NCBI GenBank assembly: GCA_001898645.1
Contig: MKUQ01000004.1
Coordinates: 124,001 to 188,000 of the forward strand
Length of the DNA stretch: 64,000 nt
DNA from: Burkholderiales bacterium 70-64
GTDB lineage: Bacteria; Pseudomonadota; Gammaproteobacteria; Burkholderiales; Burkholderiaceae_E
Direction of reading: 5' to 3'
Shown here piece by piece: positions 4,029 through 30,737 of the stretch. A model generated the notes under the pieces. The model worked only from the letters and a program-made list of their open reading frames with translations. It was not told where the DNA came from and ran no database searches. Made by a program: the position numbers and the translations under genes. Each line of letters opens with the position of its first letter. The first letter of the stretch is position 1.

Positions 4029-5943
<1,915 letters not shown>

Positions 5944-6158
5944 TCACCCCCTGCGATCGGAGCTGGCAAATAGCGGCGTTGCTCCTTGCCCGGGCCCGTC
6001 CGGCGCGCTCGCCCTTCCGGCCGGCAGGACACTGGCCACCGTCGACCGTGGGACGGTACCATCCTTCAGATCAAGCACAACTGCTCCCGGCGGCGATCCT
6101 CGCCTTCGATGGCGGCGAGCCTGTTCTTGCGCGGCCTCGTCGGGACAACGGATCGACC

Positions 6159-6821
6159 ATGGAAGACTTCCCCAAAGACATCTACACGGAACCCGAACCG
6201 GACGTCGATACGCTCGCCAATCTGGGACCGCTCACCGGGATGGCAGGCATCTGGACCGGTACGCGCGGCCTCGACGTCAGCCCGAAGCCCGACGGCCCCG
6301 AGAAGCAGGCGTTCATCGAGCACATGGAATTGCAGCCGATCGATGCGCAGACCAATGGCCCGCAACTGTTCTACGGGCTGCGCTACCACACGCGGATCGT
6401 CAAGCCCGATGACGTCGAGACGTTTCACGATCAGGTCGGCTATTGGCTATGGGAGCCGGCGACGGGAAACGTGATCCAGACGCTTTCGATACCGCGCGGG
6501 CAGACGGCGATGGCTGTCGGTCATGCCGCCGCTGACGCGAGAACGTTCCGCCTCCAGGCTGTCCGCGGGTCCGAAACGAACGGGATCGTGTCGAACCCGT
6601 TCCTGGAGTACGCATTCAGGACGGAGCGCTACACCGTCACGGTCTCGATCAACGACGATGGCACGTGGTCCTACGAGCAGGAGACCGTGCTGGTCATCCC
6701 GGGCCAGGCGGAACCGTTCCGCCATACGGATCGCAATACGCTCCGGAAGATCGGCGAGCCTACGCCCAACCCTACGGCGCAGGCAGCGGCAGCGAAAGCG
6801 GGGAAATCCCAGGCGCGTTAG
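6159..6821 (+). CDS. Nitrobindin-like heme-binding beta-barrel (FABP-fold) protein
   Basis: A 220-aa cytosolic protein without signal peptide. Near the N-terminus it has LGPLTGMAGIWTGTRG, the GxWxG signature of nitrobindin/THAP4-like barrels related to fatty-acid-binding proteins. The rest alternates polar and hydrophobic residues as in a beta-barrel, including YWLWEPATG and IPRGQ, which are typical of this family. Characterised relatives bind heme and handle nitric oxide or peroxynitrite; the ligand here is unknown. The first ATG after the divergent intergenic region is used. Base composition is visibly lower in GC than its neighbours, which could reflect a separate origin. Confidence 0.75.
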   Translation: MEDFPKDIYTEPEPDVDTLANLGPLTGMAGIWTGTRGLDVSPKPDGPEKQAFIEHMELQPIDAQTNGPQLFYGLRYHTRIVKPDDVETFHDQVGYWLWEPATGNVIQTLSIPRGQTAMAVGHAAADARTFRLQAVRGSETNGIVSNPFLEYAFRTERYTVTVSINDDGTWSYEQETVLVIPGQAEPFRHTDRNTLRKIGEPTPNPTAQAAAAKAGKSQAR

Positions 6822-6890
6822 TCACGCGCCATCAGGCGGGCACTGGATGAATGCGCAAAGTGGCGCGAAGTAGAATCCGTGGCCCCGACC

Positions 6891-6907
6891 AGCGGATATA
6901 GTCCGCT
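6891..6907. promoter_or_regulatory. Inverted repeat upstream of iclR-type gene
   Basis: AGCGGA-TATAG-TCCGCT, a perfect 6-bp inverted repeat with a 5-bp spacer, lies about 70 bases before the start at 6979. It could be an autoregulatory operator for the adjacent IclR-type regulator. Its sequence differs from the motif shared by the two catabolic operons. Confidence 0.35.
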
Positions 6908-6978
6908 TCGCGATGCAGTCCTGCCTGTGCCGAGCGCATCGTGAATCCACCCGCGGGGCGGGCTCGAGAGGGAGACGG

Positions 6979-7737
6979 ATGAACAACACTCTGGTCAAGG
7001 GCCTTCAGGTGCTCGAGGCCCTCGCGGGCAGCGAGCGGCCGCTGGGCGTGAGCGAGCTCGCGTCCATGCTCGAGATGGGCAAGAGCAACGTGCATCGCCT
7101 GCTTCAGGCCCTCGTCGAGCTGCGCTACGTGGTCAAGGACGAGTCGACGTCCGAGTACTCGGCCTCGCTCAAGGTCTGGGAGCTGGGCAACCGGCTGTCC
7201 CTGCGCCTGGCGATCCGGCACGCGGCGCAGATGCGCATGACCGAGCTGCTCGAGGCGACGCGCGAGACCATCCACCTGTCGGTGCTCGAGGGGCGCGAGA
7301 TTCTCTACGTGCACAAGCTCGACAGCCCGGAACCGGTGCGTGCCTATTCGGAGGTGGGTGGTCGTGCGCCCGCGCACTGTGTGGCTACCGGCAAGGCGAT
7401 CCTGGCCTGGCAGCCGCAGAAGCTCCTCGAGGACATGGCGGCCGGCGGGCTGACGCGATATACGCCCAATACCATCGTCGACGGCCCGGCCTTCCTGCGC
7501 GAGATGGAGCGGGTGCGCCACCAGGGTTACGCGGTCAATCGAGGCGAGTGGCGCGAAACCGTGTGGGGCATCGCGGCGCCGATCCGTGATTCGGTCGGTA
7601 CCGTGGTGGCGGCACTGGGCATCTCCGGTCCCTCGTCGCGCTTCAAGCCCGCCCGGATCAAGTCGCTGGCCGCGCTGGTGCGCGAGGCGGCCGATGCCGT
7701 CTCGCTCCAGCCGCAGGCTGTGCGCCGAAGCGCCTGA
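6979..7737 (+). CDS. IclR-family transcriptional regulator
   Basis: A 252-aa regulator. The N-terminal winged helix-turn-helix (about residues 1-65) has VKGLQVLEAL and MGKSNVHRLLQAL. The C-terminal effector-binding domain (about 80-245) carries APAHCVATGKAIL and NRGEWRETVWGIAAPI. The ATG at 6979 has a GGGAG ribosome-binding site a few bases upstream. It lies upstream of, and in the same direction as, the operon starting at 8153, separated by 415 bp containing a TGGAAC-N4-GTTCTG element. A matching element precedes the facing operon at 23398. I infer it is the local regulator of both; the effector is unknown. Confidence 0.93.
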   Translation: MNNTLVKGLQVLEALAGSERPLGVSELASMLEMGKSNVHRLLQALVELRYVVKDESTSEYSASLKVWELGNRLSLRLAIRHAAQMRMTELLEATRETIHLSVLEGREILYVHKLDSPEPVRAYSEVGGRAPAHCVATGKAILAWQPQKLLEDMAAGGLTRYTPNTIVDGPAFLREMERVRHQGYAVNRGEWRETVWGIAAPIRDSVGTVVAALGISGPSSRFKPARIKSLAALVREAADAVSLQPQAVRRSA

Positions 7738-23849: not shown

Positions 23850-23928
<79 letters not shown>

Positions 23929-23941
23929 TCTGGAATCAAAA

Positions 23942-23971
23942 ATTATACCTGGGAACGCCGCTTCCTCGCAA
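23942..23971 (-). promoter_or_regulatory. Promoter of the initiator tRNA gene
   Basis: On the minus strand, TTGCGA (23966-23971) is 18 bp upstream of a perfect TATAAT (23942-23947). The -10 box ends 14 bases before the tRNA 5' end, so transcription would start a few bases before the mature tRNA. Confidence 0.75.
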
Positions 23972-24052
23972 GCTCGCGCCGTCCGCCTCAGCGGCGCGGC
24001 GCCCGACTCCTCTACACTGCCCGCTCGCCGAACTCCCCCATCGCTCCGACCT

Positions 24053-24733
24053 ATGCCCATGCATCCGCTACCGCTCCTCTCGCTGCTCGAGGCGAGGGTG
24101 CTCGCCGTGCTCGTCGAGAAGGAGAGCACGGTGCCCGACACCTACCCGATGTCGCTCAATGCGCTCACCGCCGGGTGCAACCAGAAGACCAGCCGGCATC
24201 CGGTGATCTCCGCGTCCGAGGCCGAGGTTCAGGCGGCGCTCGACGGCCTGAGGCGGCTGTCGCTGGCGATCGAGTCGAGCGGCGGGCGGGTGATGCGCTA
24301 CGCGCACAACGCGCGGCGCGTGCTCGACATCCCGTCGGAGTCGGTGGCGCTGCTCGCGACGCTGGTGCTGCGCGGGCCGCAGACCGCGGCCGAGCTGCGG
24401 GTCAACTGCGAGCGGCTGCACCGATTCGCCGACGCCTCGTCGGTGGAGGCTTTCCTGCGCGAGCTGGCGGCCCGGGATGCCGGCGCGCTGGTCGTCGAGC
24501 TGCCGCGCCAGCCGGGCGCGCGCGAGACGCGCTGGGCGAGCCTGCTGTGCGGCCCGCCGGCGCAGGAAGCGGCCGGGTCCGCGCCGATGGCACCGGCCGC
24601 TGCGGCCGGCGGCGAGGCGCCGCCCGACAGGCTGGCGGCGCTCGAAGCCGAGGTGGCCAGGCTGGGCGGCGAGCTGCGATCGCTCGAGGCCGCCGTCGCG
24701 CAGCTGCGCGACGCGCTGGGTGTCGGATCCTGA
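24053..24733 (+). CDS. YceH-family protein (DUF480)
   Basis: A 226-aa cytosolic protein of the YceH family. Landmarks: LLEARVLAVLVEKE, YPMSLNALTAGCNQKTSR, and LVLRGPQTAAELR, which form the two winged-helix-like domains. The C-terminal 30 residues form a predicted coiled coil (RLAALEAEVARLGGEL). An ATG at 24053 or 24059 could be the start, differing by two residues; neither has a strong ribosome-binding site. The family is widespread and of unknown function. It is followed after 67 bp by the AAA+ protease gene and may be cotranscribed with it. Confidence 0.88.
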   Translation: MPMHPLPLLSLLEARVLAVLVEKESTVPDTYPMSLNALTAGCNQKTSRHPVISASEAEVQAALDGLRRLSLAIESSGGRVMRYAHNARRVLDIPSESVALLATLVLRGPQTAAELRVNCERLHRFADASSVEAFLRELAARDAGALVVELPRQPGARETRWASLLCGPPAQEAAGSAPMAPAAAAGGEAPPDRLAALEAEVARLGGELRSLEAAVAQLRDALGVGS

Positions 24734-24800
24734 TGGATGTCGGCTCCTGACAGCCGGGGTATGATTTCCCGGACCCGCACCGCTGTCAGGGATATCACCC

Positions 24801-26957
24801 ATGAGCAGCAATCTCCCGAAGAATTTCCCCGGCCGCCCGGCTTCGGCGGCAGCCTCGTCGCCGGGCGAGGCGGGGGCCGGCTCGCTGCCGAAGAACTTCA
24901 CCCCCGAGATGGCGCTCGCGGCCGCGGCGCTGCAGTCCACGGTCGCGGCCGGCGGCGCACCGGCGCAGCAGGGCACGCCGGTGCAGCAGGGCGTGGCCGC
25001 GGAGCAGGCGGGCAACGGGTCCGCGTCCGGCCCCGAGGTCACGCGGGCGGAGATCGCCGGCTACTTCGCACAGCGCATCGTCGAGCTGCGTGACGCGCTG
25101 CGCGGCGCTTCGGTGCGGCCGCGCCTGTACGCGATCGAGTTTCCCTTCGTCGATTTCGAGCGCGACGTCGCCTACGTGCTGGCGCGCGGGCTCGACGCCG
25201 CGCTGGCGGCCGGCGGCGTGCCGGCCGGCGAGGACGAGCCGCAGCGCCCGCTGGTGGTGGTCGATCGCGAGGTCGAGACGGCGCAGGAGCTCGAGCGCAT
25301 CGTGCGCTTCATCAACCACGGTCAGGACGCCTACGTGCTGTGCACGCGCGTCTGGCAGCTGCCGGATGCGATCATCGACCTGGTCGACGCGACGGTTGCC
25401 GTCCCGCGTTTCGACCCGCTGAGCTTCGCTGCGGCCTGCGTCGACTTCTACGAGCTGGCGGCCCCGCCCGTGCTCGGCGAGGGTGCGGGCGGCTTCTTCG
25501 CGCGCCTGGTCGGGGCGCGCGATTCCGGCGCCGACGTCGAGTGGGTGCACAACGTGGTGCCGCGCGACTTCCTGCTCAACAGCCAGGTGCCGCACGAGGC
25601 CGTCGTGGCCGCGGTGCGCGAGTCGGTGCTGCGGCGCCTGCGCCGCTACGCCACCGACGACGCGTTCGACTTCGCCGACCTCGCCGGCATGGACGAGGCA
25701 CACGAGTGGGCCCGCGGCTTGATCGACGAGGTCCGGCTGGCGCGCGCCGGCTCGATCTCCTGGGGCGAAGTGAGCGCGCGCGTGATCCTGCTGGGCGCGC
25801 GCGGGGTCGGCAAGACCACGCTGGCGCGGGCGATCGCCAAGGCGGCCGGCCTGCGCTATGTCGAGGCCTCGGCGAGCGCCTGGGCGCCCTCGGAAGACGA
25901 CGCCGGTGCCGGCTGGGCGCGCATGAACGCGCAGTTCCAGGAGGCGATCGCCGCCGCGCCGGCGCTGTTTTTCGTCGACGACGTCGACGTGTTCGCGCAC
26001 GCGCCGTGGTCGGGCATGCTGCCGGCCTTCCTCGCGGCGTTGAAGGGGCTGGTGCCCGAGGATCGCGTGGTCGTGGTCGCGGGTGCGCAGTCGGCCGAGG
26101 GCGTGCGCTTCGAGCTGCGCCGCCCGGGCGCGCTCGAGACGCTGCTCGTCATGCCCCAGCCGAATTCGCAGGCGCTCGCGAAGATGTACGAGGTGATGCT
26201 CCGGCGCAGCGGCAGCAGCCTGACGCAGGACGATCTCGAGCACGTCGGGCTGCTCTCTCTCGGCATGGGCGGGCGCGAGGTGGAGCTGGTGGTGCGCCGC
26301 GCGCTGCGGCGCGCGCGCAAGGACAACGGCCGCGCTGTCTCCAGGGACGACCTGGCGCAGGCCATCATCCAGGAGCGCCTGGGCCCGGAATCGCAGAGCC
26401 GCCGCCTGATGGCCGAGGACGAGCTGCGCAATACCGCCTACCACGAGGCCGGCCACGCGATCCTGGAGATGATGCGCGCGCGCGGACCGCGCCTGAGGTA
26501 TGCCAGCATCATCCCGCGCGAGAACGGCACGCTCGGCTTCGTTATGCCCGGCGTGGACGAGTCGCGCAGCTCCGAGACGCGGCGCGACATCATGGACTCG
26601 GTGCGCGCGCTGCTCGCCGGGCGCGCCGCCGAGGAGGTGTTCGCCGGACCCGAGGCCGTGACCTCCGGCTGCAGCAACGATCTCTGGAAGGCCACCCGGT
26701 ACCTGCAGCATCTGATGACGCGCAGCGGCTTCCAGGGCCTGCTGTTCCTCGAGCGGCGCTTCGAGGATGCGCCCGAGCTGCGCGAGCGCGCGGAGGCCAT
26801 CCTGCAGGCCGAGTACGCCGAGGTGGTCGCCCTGCTGCAGCGCCACCGCCCGCTGCTCGACCGCGTGGCGGGCCTGCTGCTCGAGCGCCAGGAGGTCTCG
26901 GGCGACGAGCTCGCGCGCGTCGTCGAGGAGTATCGCGCCTGCCAACCACTCGCATAG
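24801..26957 (+). CDS. Soluble FtsH-like AAA+ ATPase with M41-type zinc peptidase domain
   Basis: A 718-aa protein. Residues 1-80 are Ala/Gly/Gln-rich, 80-290 form an unrecognised domain, 290-480 an AAA+ module and 500-715 an M41 peptidase. The zinc site is intact: HEAGH at 548-552 and Asp627 in SGCSND. There is no transmembrane segment, unlike FtsH. The ATPase part has Walker A GARGVGKT (332-339), but Walker B reads FFVDDVD (391-396, Asp for the usual Glu). The RPGRFDR arginine region is RPGALET (441-447), the FVG pore motif is absent, and the sensor-1 Asn region reads AGAQS. Probably a cytosolic protease with reduced or altered ATP use. It is followed closely by a YbjN-like partner gene. 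Confidence 0.85.
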   Translation: MSSNLPKNFPGRPASAAASSPGEAGAGSLPKNFTPEMALAAAALQSTVAAGGAPAQQGTPVQQGVAAEQAGNGSASGPEVTRAEIAGYFAQRIVELRDALRGASVRPRLYAIEFPFVDFERDVAYVLARGLDAALAAGGVPAGEDEPQRPLVVVDREVETAQELERIVRFINHGQDAYVLCTRVWQLPDAIIDLVDATVAVPRFDPLSFAAACVDFYELAAPPVLGEGAGGFFARLVGARDSGADVEWVHNVVPRDFLLNSQVPHEAVVAAVRESVLRRLRRYATDDAFDFADLAGMDEAHEWARGLIDEVRLARAGSISWGEVSARVILLGARGVGKTTLARAIAKAAGLRYVEASASAWAPSEDDAGAGWARMNAQFQEAIAAAPALFFVDDVDVFAHAPWSGMLPAFLAALKGLVPEDRVVVVAGAQSAEGVRFELRRPGALETLLVMPQPNSQALAKMYEVMLRRSGSSLTQDDLEHVGLLSLGMGGREVELVVRRALRRARKDNGRAVSRDDLAQAIIQERLGPESQSRRLMAEDELRNTAYHEAGHAILEMMRARGPRLRYASIIPRENGTLGFVMPGVDESRSSETRRDIMDSVRALLAGRAAEEVFAGPEAVTSGCSNDLWKATRYLQHLMTRSGFQGLLFLERRFEDAPELRERAEAILQAEYAEVVALLQRHRPLLDRVAGLLLERQEVSGDELARVVEEYRACQPLA

Positions 26958-26971
26958 ATGGAGACACCGCC

Positions 26972-27430
26972 ATGGAATTCCGCAACGAGATGCAGAAGAA
27001 CGTCTACATCATGGTGGCGAGCTGGTTCGAGCCCGAGCTGCAAAGCGGCGCGATCCAGCGCTACGAGGACCAGCCGGCCTTCTTCGCGCGCGGCGGCAGC
27101 GCCGGCATCCGGATCTCGATCCTTCCCTACGGCGATGACGAGGCGGTGATCAACGTCCTGGCCACGGTGGTCAAGGGGGCCAGCCTCACGCCCGAGCTGA
27201 TGGGCTTCCTGCTGACCACCAACCGCGACAGCTGCTGGTTCGGCGCCTTCGGCTTCGACGGCAAGAGCGACACCGTCACGTTCGAGCATTCGATCGTCGG
27301 CTCGACCTGCGACCGCAAGGAGCTGCAGACCTCGATGGTCGCGGTGCTCGGCGCGGCGGACAAATACGACGACATGATCGTCGCCAAGTTCGGCGGCAAG
27401 AGCCTGCGCGCGCGCGAGTCGGGGCAGTAA
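26972..27430 (+). CDS. YbjN/CesT-like small protein
   Basis: A 152-aa protein whose alternating strands and helices suggest the YbjN/type III-secretion-chaperone-like fold: [38 protein letters not shown] and [17 protein letters not shown]. It has no signal peptide or membrane segment. It starts 14 bp after the AAA+ protease gene, so the two are surely cotranscribed. Proteins of this fold often act as chaperones or adaptors, so it may deliver substrates to the protease; that is inference. The ATG at 26972 is preceded by a GGAGA sequence. Confidence 0.7.
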
Positions 27431-28760: not shown

Positions 28761-30737
28761 TTGAATACCGAATATCCGGGCGAGAGCCGCTACGACCTTG
28801 CAGCGTCCGACGTCGACGCCGCCGAGAAACCTCGTGCCGACGCCGACCGCGCCGACTCTGCCCGCTCCGAGGCCGGCCGAGCCGATGCCGCCCAGGCCGA
28901 CGCAGTCGCGGGGGAGGCCGCCGCGCCGTTGCCGGAGACCGAAGGTGCGGCCGGCGCCCGCGAGCCGCGCCCGCTGCGGACCATGTTCAACCGCCGCCGC
29001 GGCGGCAACCGGTCGGGCTCCAGGGGTCCGCGCGGCGGCCGGCGCGCCCCCGGGGAAGAGGCAGGTACGGCGGACGTCGATGAATCGACGGCGGTCGGAG
29101 CGGCGGCAAGCGGCGCCTCCGAGGCGCCGGGCCTCGGCAGCGAGGGTGCGACCCCGGCCGACGCGCTGCGAGCCGATGCGTCGGCCGGCGAGGCGTCGGC
29201 GGGTGGGGCGTCGTCGCCCGAGGTCGAGCCGCTGCCTGCCTATGCCAGCGGTCCCGCGATCGGGCTGGATGCGGCCGATCCGCGTCGCCGCGGCCAGCGC
29301 CGCCAGTCCGTCGAGGACCAGCCCAAGCTGCACAAGGTGCTCGCCGACGGGGGGCTCGGCTCGCGCCGCGAGATGGAGGAGCTCATCCTCGCCGGGCGCG
29401 TGTCGGTGAACGGCCAGCCGGCGCACATCGGCCAGCGCATCGGCCCGGGGGACCAGGTCCGCGTCAACGGGCGCACCATCAACCGCCGCGCCGCGCCGGC
29501 TGCGCCGCGCGTGCTGCTCTACCACAAGCCGGCCGGCGAGATCTGTACCCGCGACGATCCCGGCCAGCGCATCACCGTGTTCGAGAAGCTGCCGCGCCTG
29601 AAGGGCGCGCGCTGGGTGGCGGTCGGCCGGCTCGACTACAACACCGAGGGCCTGCTGGTCTTCACCACTTCGGGTGATCTCGCCAACAAGCTGATGCACC
29701 CGCGCTACGGCTGGGAGCGCGAATACGCGGTGCGCATCCTCGGGCGCATCGACGAGGCCGCGCGCGAGTCGCTGCTCGCCGGCGTGCAGCTCGAGGACGG
29801 CCCGGCGCGCTTCACCGCGATCGAAGACCTCGGCGGCGACGGCGCCAACGCCTGGTATCGCGTGGTGATCGCCGAAGGGCGCAATCGCGAGGTGCGGCGC
29901 ATGTTCGAGGTGGTCGGCCTCACCGTGAGCCGGCTGGTGCGCCTGCGCTTCGGGCCGCTGGCGCTGCCGCGCGGCCTGGCCCGCGGCCGCTGGGCCGAGC
30001 TGGGCGGCGCCGAGCTGCAGGCACTTTCCGAGGCCATCCGGCGCGCCAGCGCGCCGGCCGCGGGTGCCGGCAGGCCGGCGCGCGGCGGCGCCGCGGCCGA
30101 GCAGGTCCGCGGCATGGACGAGCGGGACGAGGAGCGCGACGACGATCGCCACGACCAGCACTTCGGCGAGGAGGGCGGCGACGGCGAGGAGGATCCGGCC
30201 GACTCGATCGGCAACCGCGCGCTGCCCGAACCCGGGCCCGAGCCGCACCATCTGAACGACGACGAGTGGCAGCCGCGCTCGGCCAACGCCCACCTGGAAG
30301 GCATCACGCGCGCGGTGCGCAAGGGCGACGGCTCGCAGCCGGCCGGCGGCAAGCGCTCGGCCTTCGCCCGGTCGAAGGGCGGGCGCGGCGCGCGTGCCGC
30401 CACGTTCACCGGGCCGATGGATACCGGCCGCTCGGGCGGGGTGACCGGCGCCTATGGCGGCGGCTACGGTCCGTCGGGCCAGCCCGGTTCGCGCAATCCC
30501 CAGGGGCCGCGCGACGGCAAGGGGCGTCGCGGCGGGCCGGGCGGACGCGGCCCGGCGGCACGCGGGGCGGGCCGCGACGGGCAGGGTCCGCGCGGCGGCC
30601 CGGCCGGGGCGCAGGGGCAGGGGCAGGGACAAGGGCAGGGACAAGGGCAGGGACGCAGCGGCCAGCCCGGCAAGGGCGGGCGGCGCGGCGGGCGCTCGCG
30701 CGGCCGCACGGGCGGCGGCGGCCATGGCAATACCTGA
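28761..30737 (+). CDS. rluB: 23S rRNA pseudouridine synthase, RluB type, with long disordered ends
   Basis: A 658-aa member of the RsuA/RluB family, in which the enzyme core is only about 250 residues (195-440). The S4 domain ([17 protein letters not shown]) is followed by the catalytic segment with the nucleophilic Asp in [12 protein letters not shown] and the late [12 protein letters not shown]. RluB modifies U2605 of 23S rRNA. Residues 1-190 and 450-658 are low complexity: Ala/Asp/Gly-rich first, then Arg/Gly-rich with a Gly-Gln repeat. The start is a TTG at 28761 with GAGG 7 bases upstream. RluB rather than RluE/F is inferred from the scpB neighbour. Confidence 0.9.
30611..30653 (+). repeat. 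In-frame tandem repeat encoding Gly-Gln
   Basis: Repeats of GGGCAG/GGACAA hexamers near the 3' end of rluB encode seven Gln-Gly pairs. Units are in phase with codons, so copy-number change would alter the length of the tail without a frameshift. Confidence 0.7.

Follow-up and report, generated by a model that had tools for sequence, protein, structure and literature searches.

FtsH (HflB), in which an AAA domain is followed by an M41 zinc peptidase domain, is among the closest described systems to the locus considered here. N-terminal transmembrane segment(s) are given as typical of FtsH in a passage of one source (PMC9020784), and a review passage describes the AAA motif set in general terms (PMC7226402). 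The FtsHi proteins of plants are presented, in a section of another paper, as FtsH relatives thought to have lost one of two activities (PMC8197885). A separate body of work concerns proteins of the CesT/YbjN fold. According to an excerpt of the AmyR paper, what is usually seen in complexes of this fold is a chain without structure, or with only part of it, wrapped around a dimer (PMC5398634), and DR1245 is described as a dimer in a passage of a further source (PMC3575483). TY-Chap1 is defined, in a passage on it, as a chaperone of ADP-ribose-related systems that is predicted to bind peptides (PMC9503650). Other CesT-like proteins are stated in part of a further paper to sit beside AAA+ proteins and PspA, and the words FtsH, M41 and protease are absent from its main text (PMC11237479). 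Our analysis concerns two adjacent genes in a stretch of 64,000 nucleotides from Burkholderiales bacterium 70-64 (contig MKUQ01000004.1, positions 124,001 to 188,000; the whole stretch is hereafter called the window), which encode a predicted soluble AAA+/M41 protease and a partner of the CesT/YbjN fold.

The protease keeps its zinc site and Walker A, whereas other catalytic residues of its ATPase are changed, and both the changes and the adjoining partner gene recur in all three orthologs that can be read. Judged from the sequences, the observation made in the initial annotation of this locus is real, rare and conserved, and the protein is more clearly altered than was first described; the sensor-1 change (Gln430 for Asn) and a tail with a doubled LPKNF motif are the points that go beyond it. 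Among the matches listed in the open-licence literature, we found no soluble M41 protease with lost ATPase residues and no M41-YbjN pair; subscription papers lay mostly outside that literature.

Zinc Site and ATPase Site of the Protease

The protease gene (24801..26957, + strand) starts with ATG and encodes 718 residues, as supported by the open reading frame call together with matches in Pfam and the Protein Data Bank (PDB). Its M41 domain scored 90.2 bits (Pfam cut-off 29.9) and its AAA domain 51.7 bits (cut-off 21.2), which places the protein in the M41 family, while no Pfam family was found at E ≤ 1 before residue 308. Among solved structures, cytosolic domains of FtsH come nearest to it in sequence (PDB 8vw9, E = 1.8e-39, residues 289-710). 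The NCBIfam model FtsH_fam/TIGR01241, however, gave 159.2 bits against a cut-off of 600, leaving the protein outside the FtsH equivalog. In PHROGs, one unnamed family without an assigned function matched the AAA-M41 part with 147 bits. The protein shares with FtsH the order of the two domains, the HExxH plus Asp zinc site and Walker A, at 27-31% identity over residues ~285-716. It differs in lacking the membrane segment and the FVG motif, in the Walker B Glu, the sensor-1 Asn and RPGRFDR, and in having another N-domain.

The zinc peptidase domain (residues 536-718; 26406..26954, + strand) carries H548, E549 and H552 within HEAGH and D627 as the third ligand, so the initial reading of HEAGH and Asp627 as intact holds. 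These residues are kept in 3/3 orthologs, as they are in 11/11 readable soluble relatives and 4/4 membrane FtsHs.

The AAA+ domain (residues 286-535; 25656..26405, + strand) was compared column by column in an alignment of the three clade members with four membrane FtsHs and twelve soluble relatives, the latter comprising P0007, G373, G461, G493, G506, G508, G596, G606 and the proteins of L014-L017 (L018 is a membrane FtsH). P0007 is open at its 3' end and readable as far as sensor 1, G596 is incomplete at its 5' end, and a TAG within the G461 match falls just past the end of the open frame and was taken as the gene's own stop. Except for Walker A (GxRGVGKTT; K338, T339), which is kept in 3/3 orthologs, the catalytic residues of the domain are degenerate. 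Asp replaces the Walker B Glu (D394, in FFVDDVD) and Gln replaces the sensor-1 Asn (Q430) in all three. RPGALET stands at 441-447 where FtsH has RPGRFDR, the arginines at positions 444 and 447 being those that we take to be the fingers in FtsH; across the three orthologs position 444 is Ala/Ala/Gly and position 447 Thr/Thr/Ser. The VDDVD and RPGALET sequences noted at the outset are thus present and consistent in the orthologs. Among the soluble relatives, by contrast, the Walker B Glu (12/12), the sensor-1 Asn (12/12) and the first Arg (11/11 readable) are all intact. Since the same changes recur in every ortholog, they appear to be beyond chance.

In the tree, the three orthologs form one clade with support of 100/100 and a long stem. 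The tree omits the truncated P0007 and carries a long-branch warning for three rows, and neither the deeper order nor a join of the clade to any one relative can be read from it. The ratio of nonsynonymous to synonymous substitutions (dN/dS) between the window and its relative G355 was 0.27 for the AAA part, 0.33 for M41, 0.36 for the N-domain, 0.37 for the tail and 0.62 for the partner; these are rough values from one gene pair of G+C-rich genes by the Nei-Gojobori method. At the level of codons, the AAA part is shown in this one comparison to be under selection as strong as that on the peptidase part.

The Partner Protein and the LPKNF Tail

The second gene (26972..27430, + strand) starts with ATG and encodes 152 residues. 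It is separated from the protease gene by 14 bp (26958..26971, + strand), in which a Shine-Dalgarno-like GGAGA lies 7 nt 5' of the partner ATG. Its product matches TY-Chap1 (PF22551, 41.7 against a cut-off of 27) and YbjN (PF10722, 28.2 against 22), and the partners in the other two loci are likewise above the cut-offs of these families. No solved chain matching the partner by sequence was found. The AlphaFold2 model built from the three sequences has a predicted local distance difference test score (pLDDT) of 89, and its best structural neighbour is ExsC (3kxy; VIA Z 13.8, root-mean-square deviation 2.9, 130 aligned residues). Further neighbours are T110839 of Synechococcus (Z 13.7), PA14_16140 (13.4), CesT (5z38; 12.5), DR1245 (12.0), YbjN (6vu7; 11.5), AmyR (5frk; 11.2) and SycE (7eva; 10.6). 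Foldseek was also run on the model, and several type III chaperones are among the best structural neighbours. The matches to YbjN-like proteins and type III chaperones extend over 111-132 residues at 7-15% identity, and the model shows the CesT/YbjN fold, as had been supposed for the gene 14 bp away. The partner shares this fold with YbjN, AmyR, DR1245 and TY-Chap1 and with the class I type III chaperones ExsC, CesT and SycE; unlike YbjN/AmyR/DR1245/ExsC-type chains, it is encoded beside a protease.

The protease begins with a low-complexity tail (residues 1-79; 24801..25037, + strand) in which LPKNF occurs at residues 5-9 (24813-24827) and 29-33 (24885-24899). Both copies are invariant in 3/3 orthologs and the remaining tail is variable in length and sequence. 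The LPKNF coding pattern gave two hits in the window's genome and two in G355, all in the protease gene, although G355 is 86% complete, so that further copies elsewhere in it may have been missed. In G364, the genome with the third pair, there were four hits, of which two are in the protease gene, one is in a 43-codon frame and one is outside any frame of at least 40 codons. The reversed pattern had zero occurrences in these three genomes, and LPKNF was not seen in frames of the canonical soluble relatives. Residues 1-80 have pLDDT values of 24-36, which fits disorder, within a protease model that is poor as a whole. That LPKNF stands twice in a tail which looks disordered, beside the gene for a chaperone of a tail-wrapping fold, is suggestive of docking.

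Conservation and Distribution of the Pair

Conservation of the gene pair had been proposed as a test of the initial annotation, and the partner adjoins the protease in 3/3 readable loci, with gaps of 14, 15 and 29 bp, at 57-73% identity and in two gene contexts. The locus L005 belongs to a Burkholderiaceae metagenome-assembled genome (MAG) and lies wholly within L013 (G355, of the window's genus), so that the two were counted as one; its protease and partner are 73 and 69% identical to those of the window. L006, from G364, a MAG filed as alphaproteobacterial, gave 61 and 57%. A further locus, L007, breaks off at residue 165, where its contig ends, and was excluded from all counts, its catalytic residues and neighbour being unreadable. 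It is closely related to the first part of the G355 gene and is also preceded by a gene of DUF480 type. The MAG that contains it is filed under Microbacteriaceae, and misbinning of the contig is probable.

In L006, the divergent gene of the canonical soluble AAA protein P0007 (2-1837, - strand), which runs off the contig, precedes the pair at a distance of 0.6 kb, and a gene for an 848-aa AAA_16/TPR STAND-type ATPase (4978-7524, + strand) follows 46 bp after the partner. The surroundings of the pair in G364 look like a four-gene island. Because the pair is kept in differing gene contexts, the two genes seem to travel as a unit. A partner profile built from the three sequences drew no hit at E < 0.05 from the DNA flanking 11 canonical soluble genes, although such a profile may overlook a remote YbjN-like neighbour; P0007 was omitted as it lies beside the pair, G596 was covered on one side, and G506 and G606 were covered 0.5 and 1.3 kb upstream only.

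The pair is rare. Within the family, the protease was found in 2/74 genomes and the partner profile in the same two, with up to 15 candidates per genome scored at 1e-45. Draws of 300 genomes from the order contained one protease and one partner, both in the window's own genome, and protease orthologs numbered 1/398 in the phylum and 1/350 in the class, again with the window's own included. The class of G364 (385 genomes) yielded G364 itself and seven canonical relatives. The scans of order, phylum, class and the class of G364 scored 2-3 candidates per genome at cut-offs of 1e-55 or 1e-60, so misses are possible, and the draws overlap. A scan of a contig collection with the single window protein as query returned three related loci, and distant orthologs may be missing from it.

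Other M41 proteins of the pair-bearing genomes were also considered. The other M41 matches number three in the window's genome (98% complete), every one a membrane FtsH (C1, C44 and C50; L001-L003), and two in G355, where a membrane FtsH is accompanied by a 365-codon fragment of the ordinary FtsH type. In the tree, the C44 and C50 FtsHs group with a Sinorhizobium plasmid copy, apart from the C1 FtsH.

An origin from phages or plasmids was considered and dropped. In viral contigs, one or the other of two short patterns picked out 142 stretches, of which none encodes a relative. Phage and plasmid matches to the protease were below 60% identity, and in no record did one place cover 80% of the query. 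The partner had no plasmid match at E ≤ 0.01, phages not having been searched for it.

Features Shared With Soluble Relatives

The initial annotation also pointed to a missing FVG pore motif, a missing membrane part and a 200-residue N-terminal region of unknown type. The best 19-residue hydropathy mean of the protease is 1.32, compared with 2.14-2.41 in the four membrane FtsHs and 1.00-1.75 across 15 soluble proteins; the protease is accordingly predicted to be soluble, in agreement with the claim that it has no membrane segment. FVG is indeed absent, as it is from the soluble proteins examined. At position 361 Trp is found in 3/3 orthologs and 12/12 soluble relatives, whereas the membrane FtsHs carry Phe in this column (within SDFVE/SEFVE), immediately ahead of the pore motif. 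The soluble AAA-M41 proteins (those of L015 and L016 bear the annotation 'AAA family ATPase') therefore have in common with the window protease the lack of a membrane segment, the Trp, the lack of FVG and, in the 11 readable cases, M41, while they differ from it in keeping the Walker B Glu, the sensor-1 Asn and the first Arg.

The region before the AAA+ domain measures about 285 residues rather than 200, and it is homologous in part to that of some soluble relatives. Its N-domain (residues 80-285; 25038..25655, + strand), compared as residues 80-290, matches by profile-profile comparison that of the ~910-aa soluble relatives and P0007 (hhalign probability 92.65, score 49.9, 164 columns; maximum of 21.4 in 20 column shuffles). 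The ~910-aa type has extra N-terminal residues. Against the L014-L017 type alone there was no match (score 15.2, shuffled maximum 18.7). Neither the N-domain nor the absence of FVG and of a membrane part is peculiar to this protease; soluble AAA-M41 proteins with normal ATPase residues have these features too, the N-domain being shared by some of them, and all three look inherited.

Two further ideas about N-terminal parts were rejected. The strands predicted in the poor model suggest an alpha/beta N-domain, but a degenerate second AAA domain was dropped because hhalign was negative for AAA domains of canonical soluble proteins (score 13.2, shuffled maximum 20.6), of FtsH (11.1 and 20.0) and of the protease itself (13.2 and 18.7). 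A YbjN-like domain fused in the N-terminal part of the canonical relatives gave no match (12.6 and 18.9). Separately, in L014, from a Rhizobium leguminosarum plasmid, a 310-codon M41 frame (5662-6591, - strand) lies convergent to the canonical soluble AAA-M41 gene; it matches the query over the peptidase part only and may be a stand-alone peptidase or a frameshifted gene.

Genomic Setting

Between tRNA-Met and the pair lies an open reading frame (24059..24733, + strand) that is presumably a gene of the DUF480/YceH type. This gene precedes the pair in the window and in G355, where window positions 24012-24556 are homologous at the DNA level, and is not beside the pair in L006; it is thus outside the conserved pair. 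Together the three genes form a block (23945-27430) between tRNA-Met and scpB, found also in G355, and scpB lies downstream of the pair in the window and in L005. The G+C content of the block is 72%, compared with 71% for the window. In 14/14 other congener scpB loci, neither pair gene occurs within 1.5 kb of scpB, a reach too short upstream to include the DUF480 gene even in the window. In 7/7 larger scpB stretches from congeners without the pair, a tblastn match to the DUF480 gene was absent. In six of these seven, tRNA-Met lies ~0.4-0.5 kb from the start of scpB with neither the pair nor the DUF480 gene anywhere along the stretch, and the seventh (G102) gave no match to a tRNA. The block has thus been either gained or lost at this site between tRNA-Met and scpB.

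The tRNA-Met of the window (23852-23928, - strand) faces away from the block and scpB, unlike that of G355 (L013) and of the congeners where a tRNA was found, in which it faces scpB. Either the DNA at the tRNA has been inverted locally or its reversal stems from the assembly. The gene that follows scpB (28761-30737, + strand) has a Gly/Gln/Arg-rich low-complexity tail with GQ repeats at ~30500-30737, and its counterpart in L005 has a similar tail.

Proposed Mechanism and Alternative Explanations

Our tentative proposal, to which we give somewhat less than an even chance, is that the pair would form a dedicated cytosolic proteolytic module in which the ATPase binds but hardly hydrolyses ATP, and the chaperone docks on the tail, presents extended clients, or both. 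The AAA ring would bind ATP (or ADP) and so hold the hexamer and the peptidase in shape. With nucleotide bound and little or no hydrolysis, folded proteins would not be threaded; clients would need to be extended beforehand, and the peptidase would act on extended chains. The partner, if a dimer like other proteins of its fold, could bind the disordered protease tail through the two LPKNF copies, one per protomer, in the way that type III chaperones hold unstructured client chains. Once docked, it may gate the peptidase or bring extended clients to it. The regulatory rather than threading use of ATP suggested earlier is plausible, and is strengthened by the loss of the sensor-1 Asn and the first arginine finger. 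It is more doubtful, though conceivable, that an FtsH-family motor has turned into a nucleotide-bound scaffold altogether, giving a peptidase independent of ATP hydrolysis and fed by a chaperone that replaces the motor and docks on the doubled LPKNF tail.

Several observations weigh against a module of this kind. A Walker B Asp may still sustain slow hydrolysis. Of 11 readable canonical soluble relatives, 5 have Arg at the second finger position and 6 do not, which makes its loss the least telling of the changes. LPKNF could serve another binding target, or the protease itself, instead of the partner. The dN/dS of the partner exceeds the values for the protease domains, the protease model from three sequences is poor (mean pLDDT 45), and there are three independent full orthologs only.

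It is unlikely, in our opinion, that the protein is an ordinary soluble protease which still threads its clients at the expense of ATP in spite of the changed residues, with the partner as an adaptor. Asp would then stand in for the Walker B Glu, and other residues for sensor 1 and the fingers. Walker A and the whole AAA domain are well conserved and W361 is retained as in the soluble relatives, but the Walker B Glu, sensor-1 Asn and first Arg, invariant in the readable soluble relatives, are jointly changed in all three orthologs. A somewhat weaker case can be made for a non-motor subunit of a mixed hexamer with a canonical paralog, comparable to plant FtsHi with FtsH12. The divergently encoded P0007 of G364, whose N-domain belongs to the matching profile, would fit such a subunit, and G364 could form a mixed ring; a ring with a canonical soluble subunit is not general, because the other M41 proteins are all membrane FtsHs in the window's genome, and a membrane FtsH and an ordinary-type fragment in G355. 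Mixing with a membrane FtsH is conceivable.

Less probable again is a toxin-antidote arrangement in which the partner keeps the protease inactive, the CesT-like chain covering its tail or active site until a signal sets the enzyme free. Its rare and patchy occurrence in the family, its presence or absence between congeners at the tRNA-Met/scpB site and the STAND/TPR gene 46 bp downstream in L006 would agree with this. In the window and in L005, however, the partner is followed by scpB and not by a STAND/TPR gene, and defence and toxin-antitoxin families gave weak matches only. PADLOC returned no specific defence match to the protease (the best was IetA with 26.1 bits, no single stretch passing, other rows being weaker and mostly P-loop) and no match at all to the partner, and toxin-antitoxin families gave no specific match. 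Finally, decay of the gene toward a pseudogene, which the loss of several catalytic residues might bring to mind, is unlikely and to us scarcely credible, because the losses are shared by 3/3 orthologs diverged down to 61% identity, their frames are open with the zinc site intact, and dN/dS over the folded domains is 0.27-0.36.

FtsH enzymes are textbook ATP-driven machines, and a clade that keeps the peptidase without the hydrolysis residues would offer a natural test of a non-motor AAA ring. A concrete role in client delivery or gating is also hinted at for a protein of the YbjN/TY-Chap1 type, with LPKNF as a short motif for testing. Plant FtsHi proteins, the nearest case among the papers listed, lose the zinc motif, while in the window protease, conversely, it is the zinc motif that is kept and the ATPase residues that are lost. 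If the scaffold-peptidase interpretation is true, this protease would be the mirror image of plant FtsHi, and the pair would connect a zinc protease with proteins that resemble type III chaperones.

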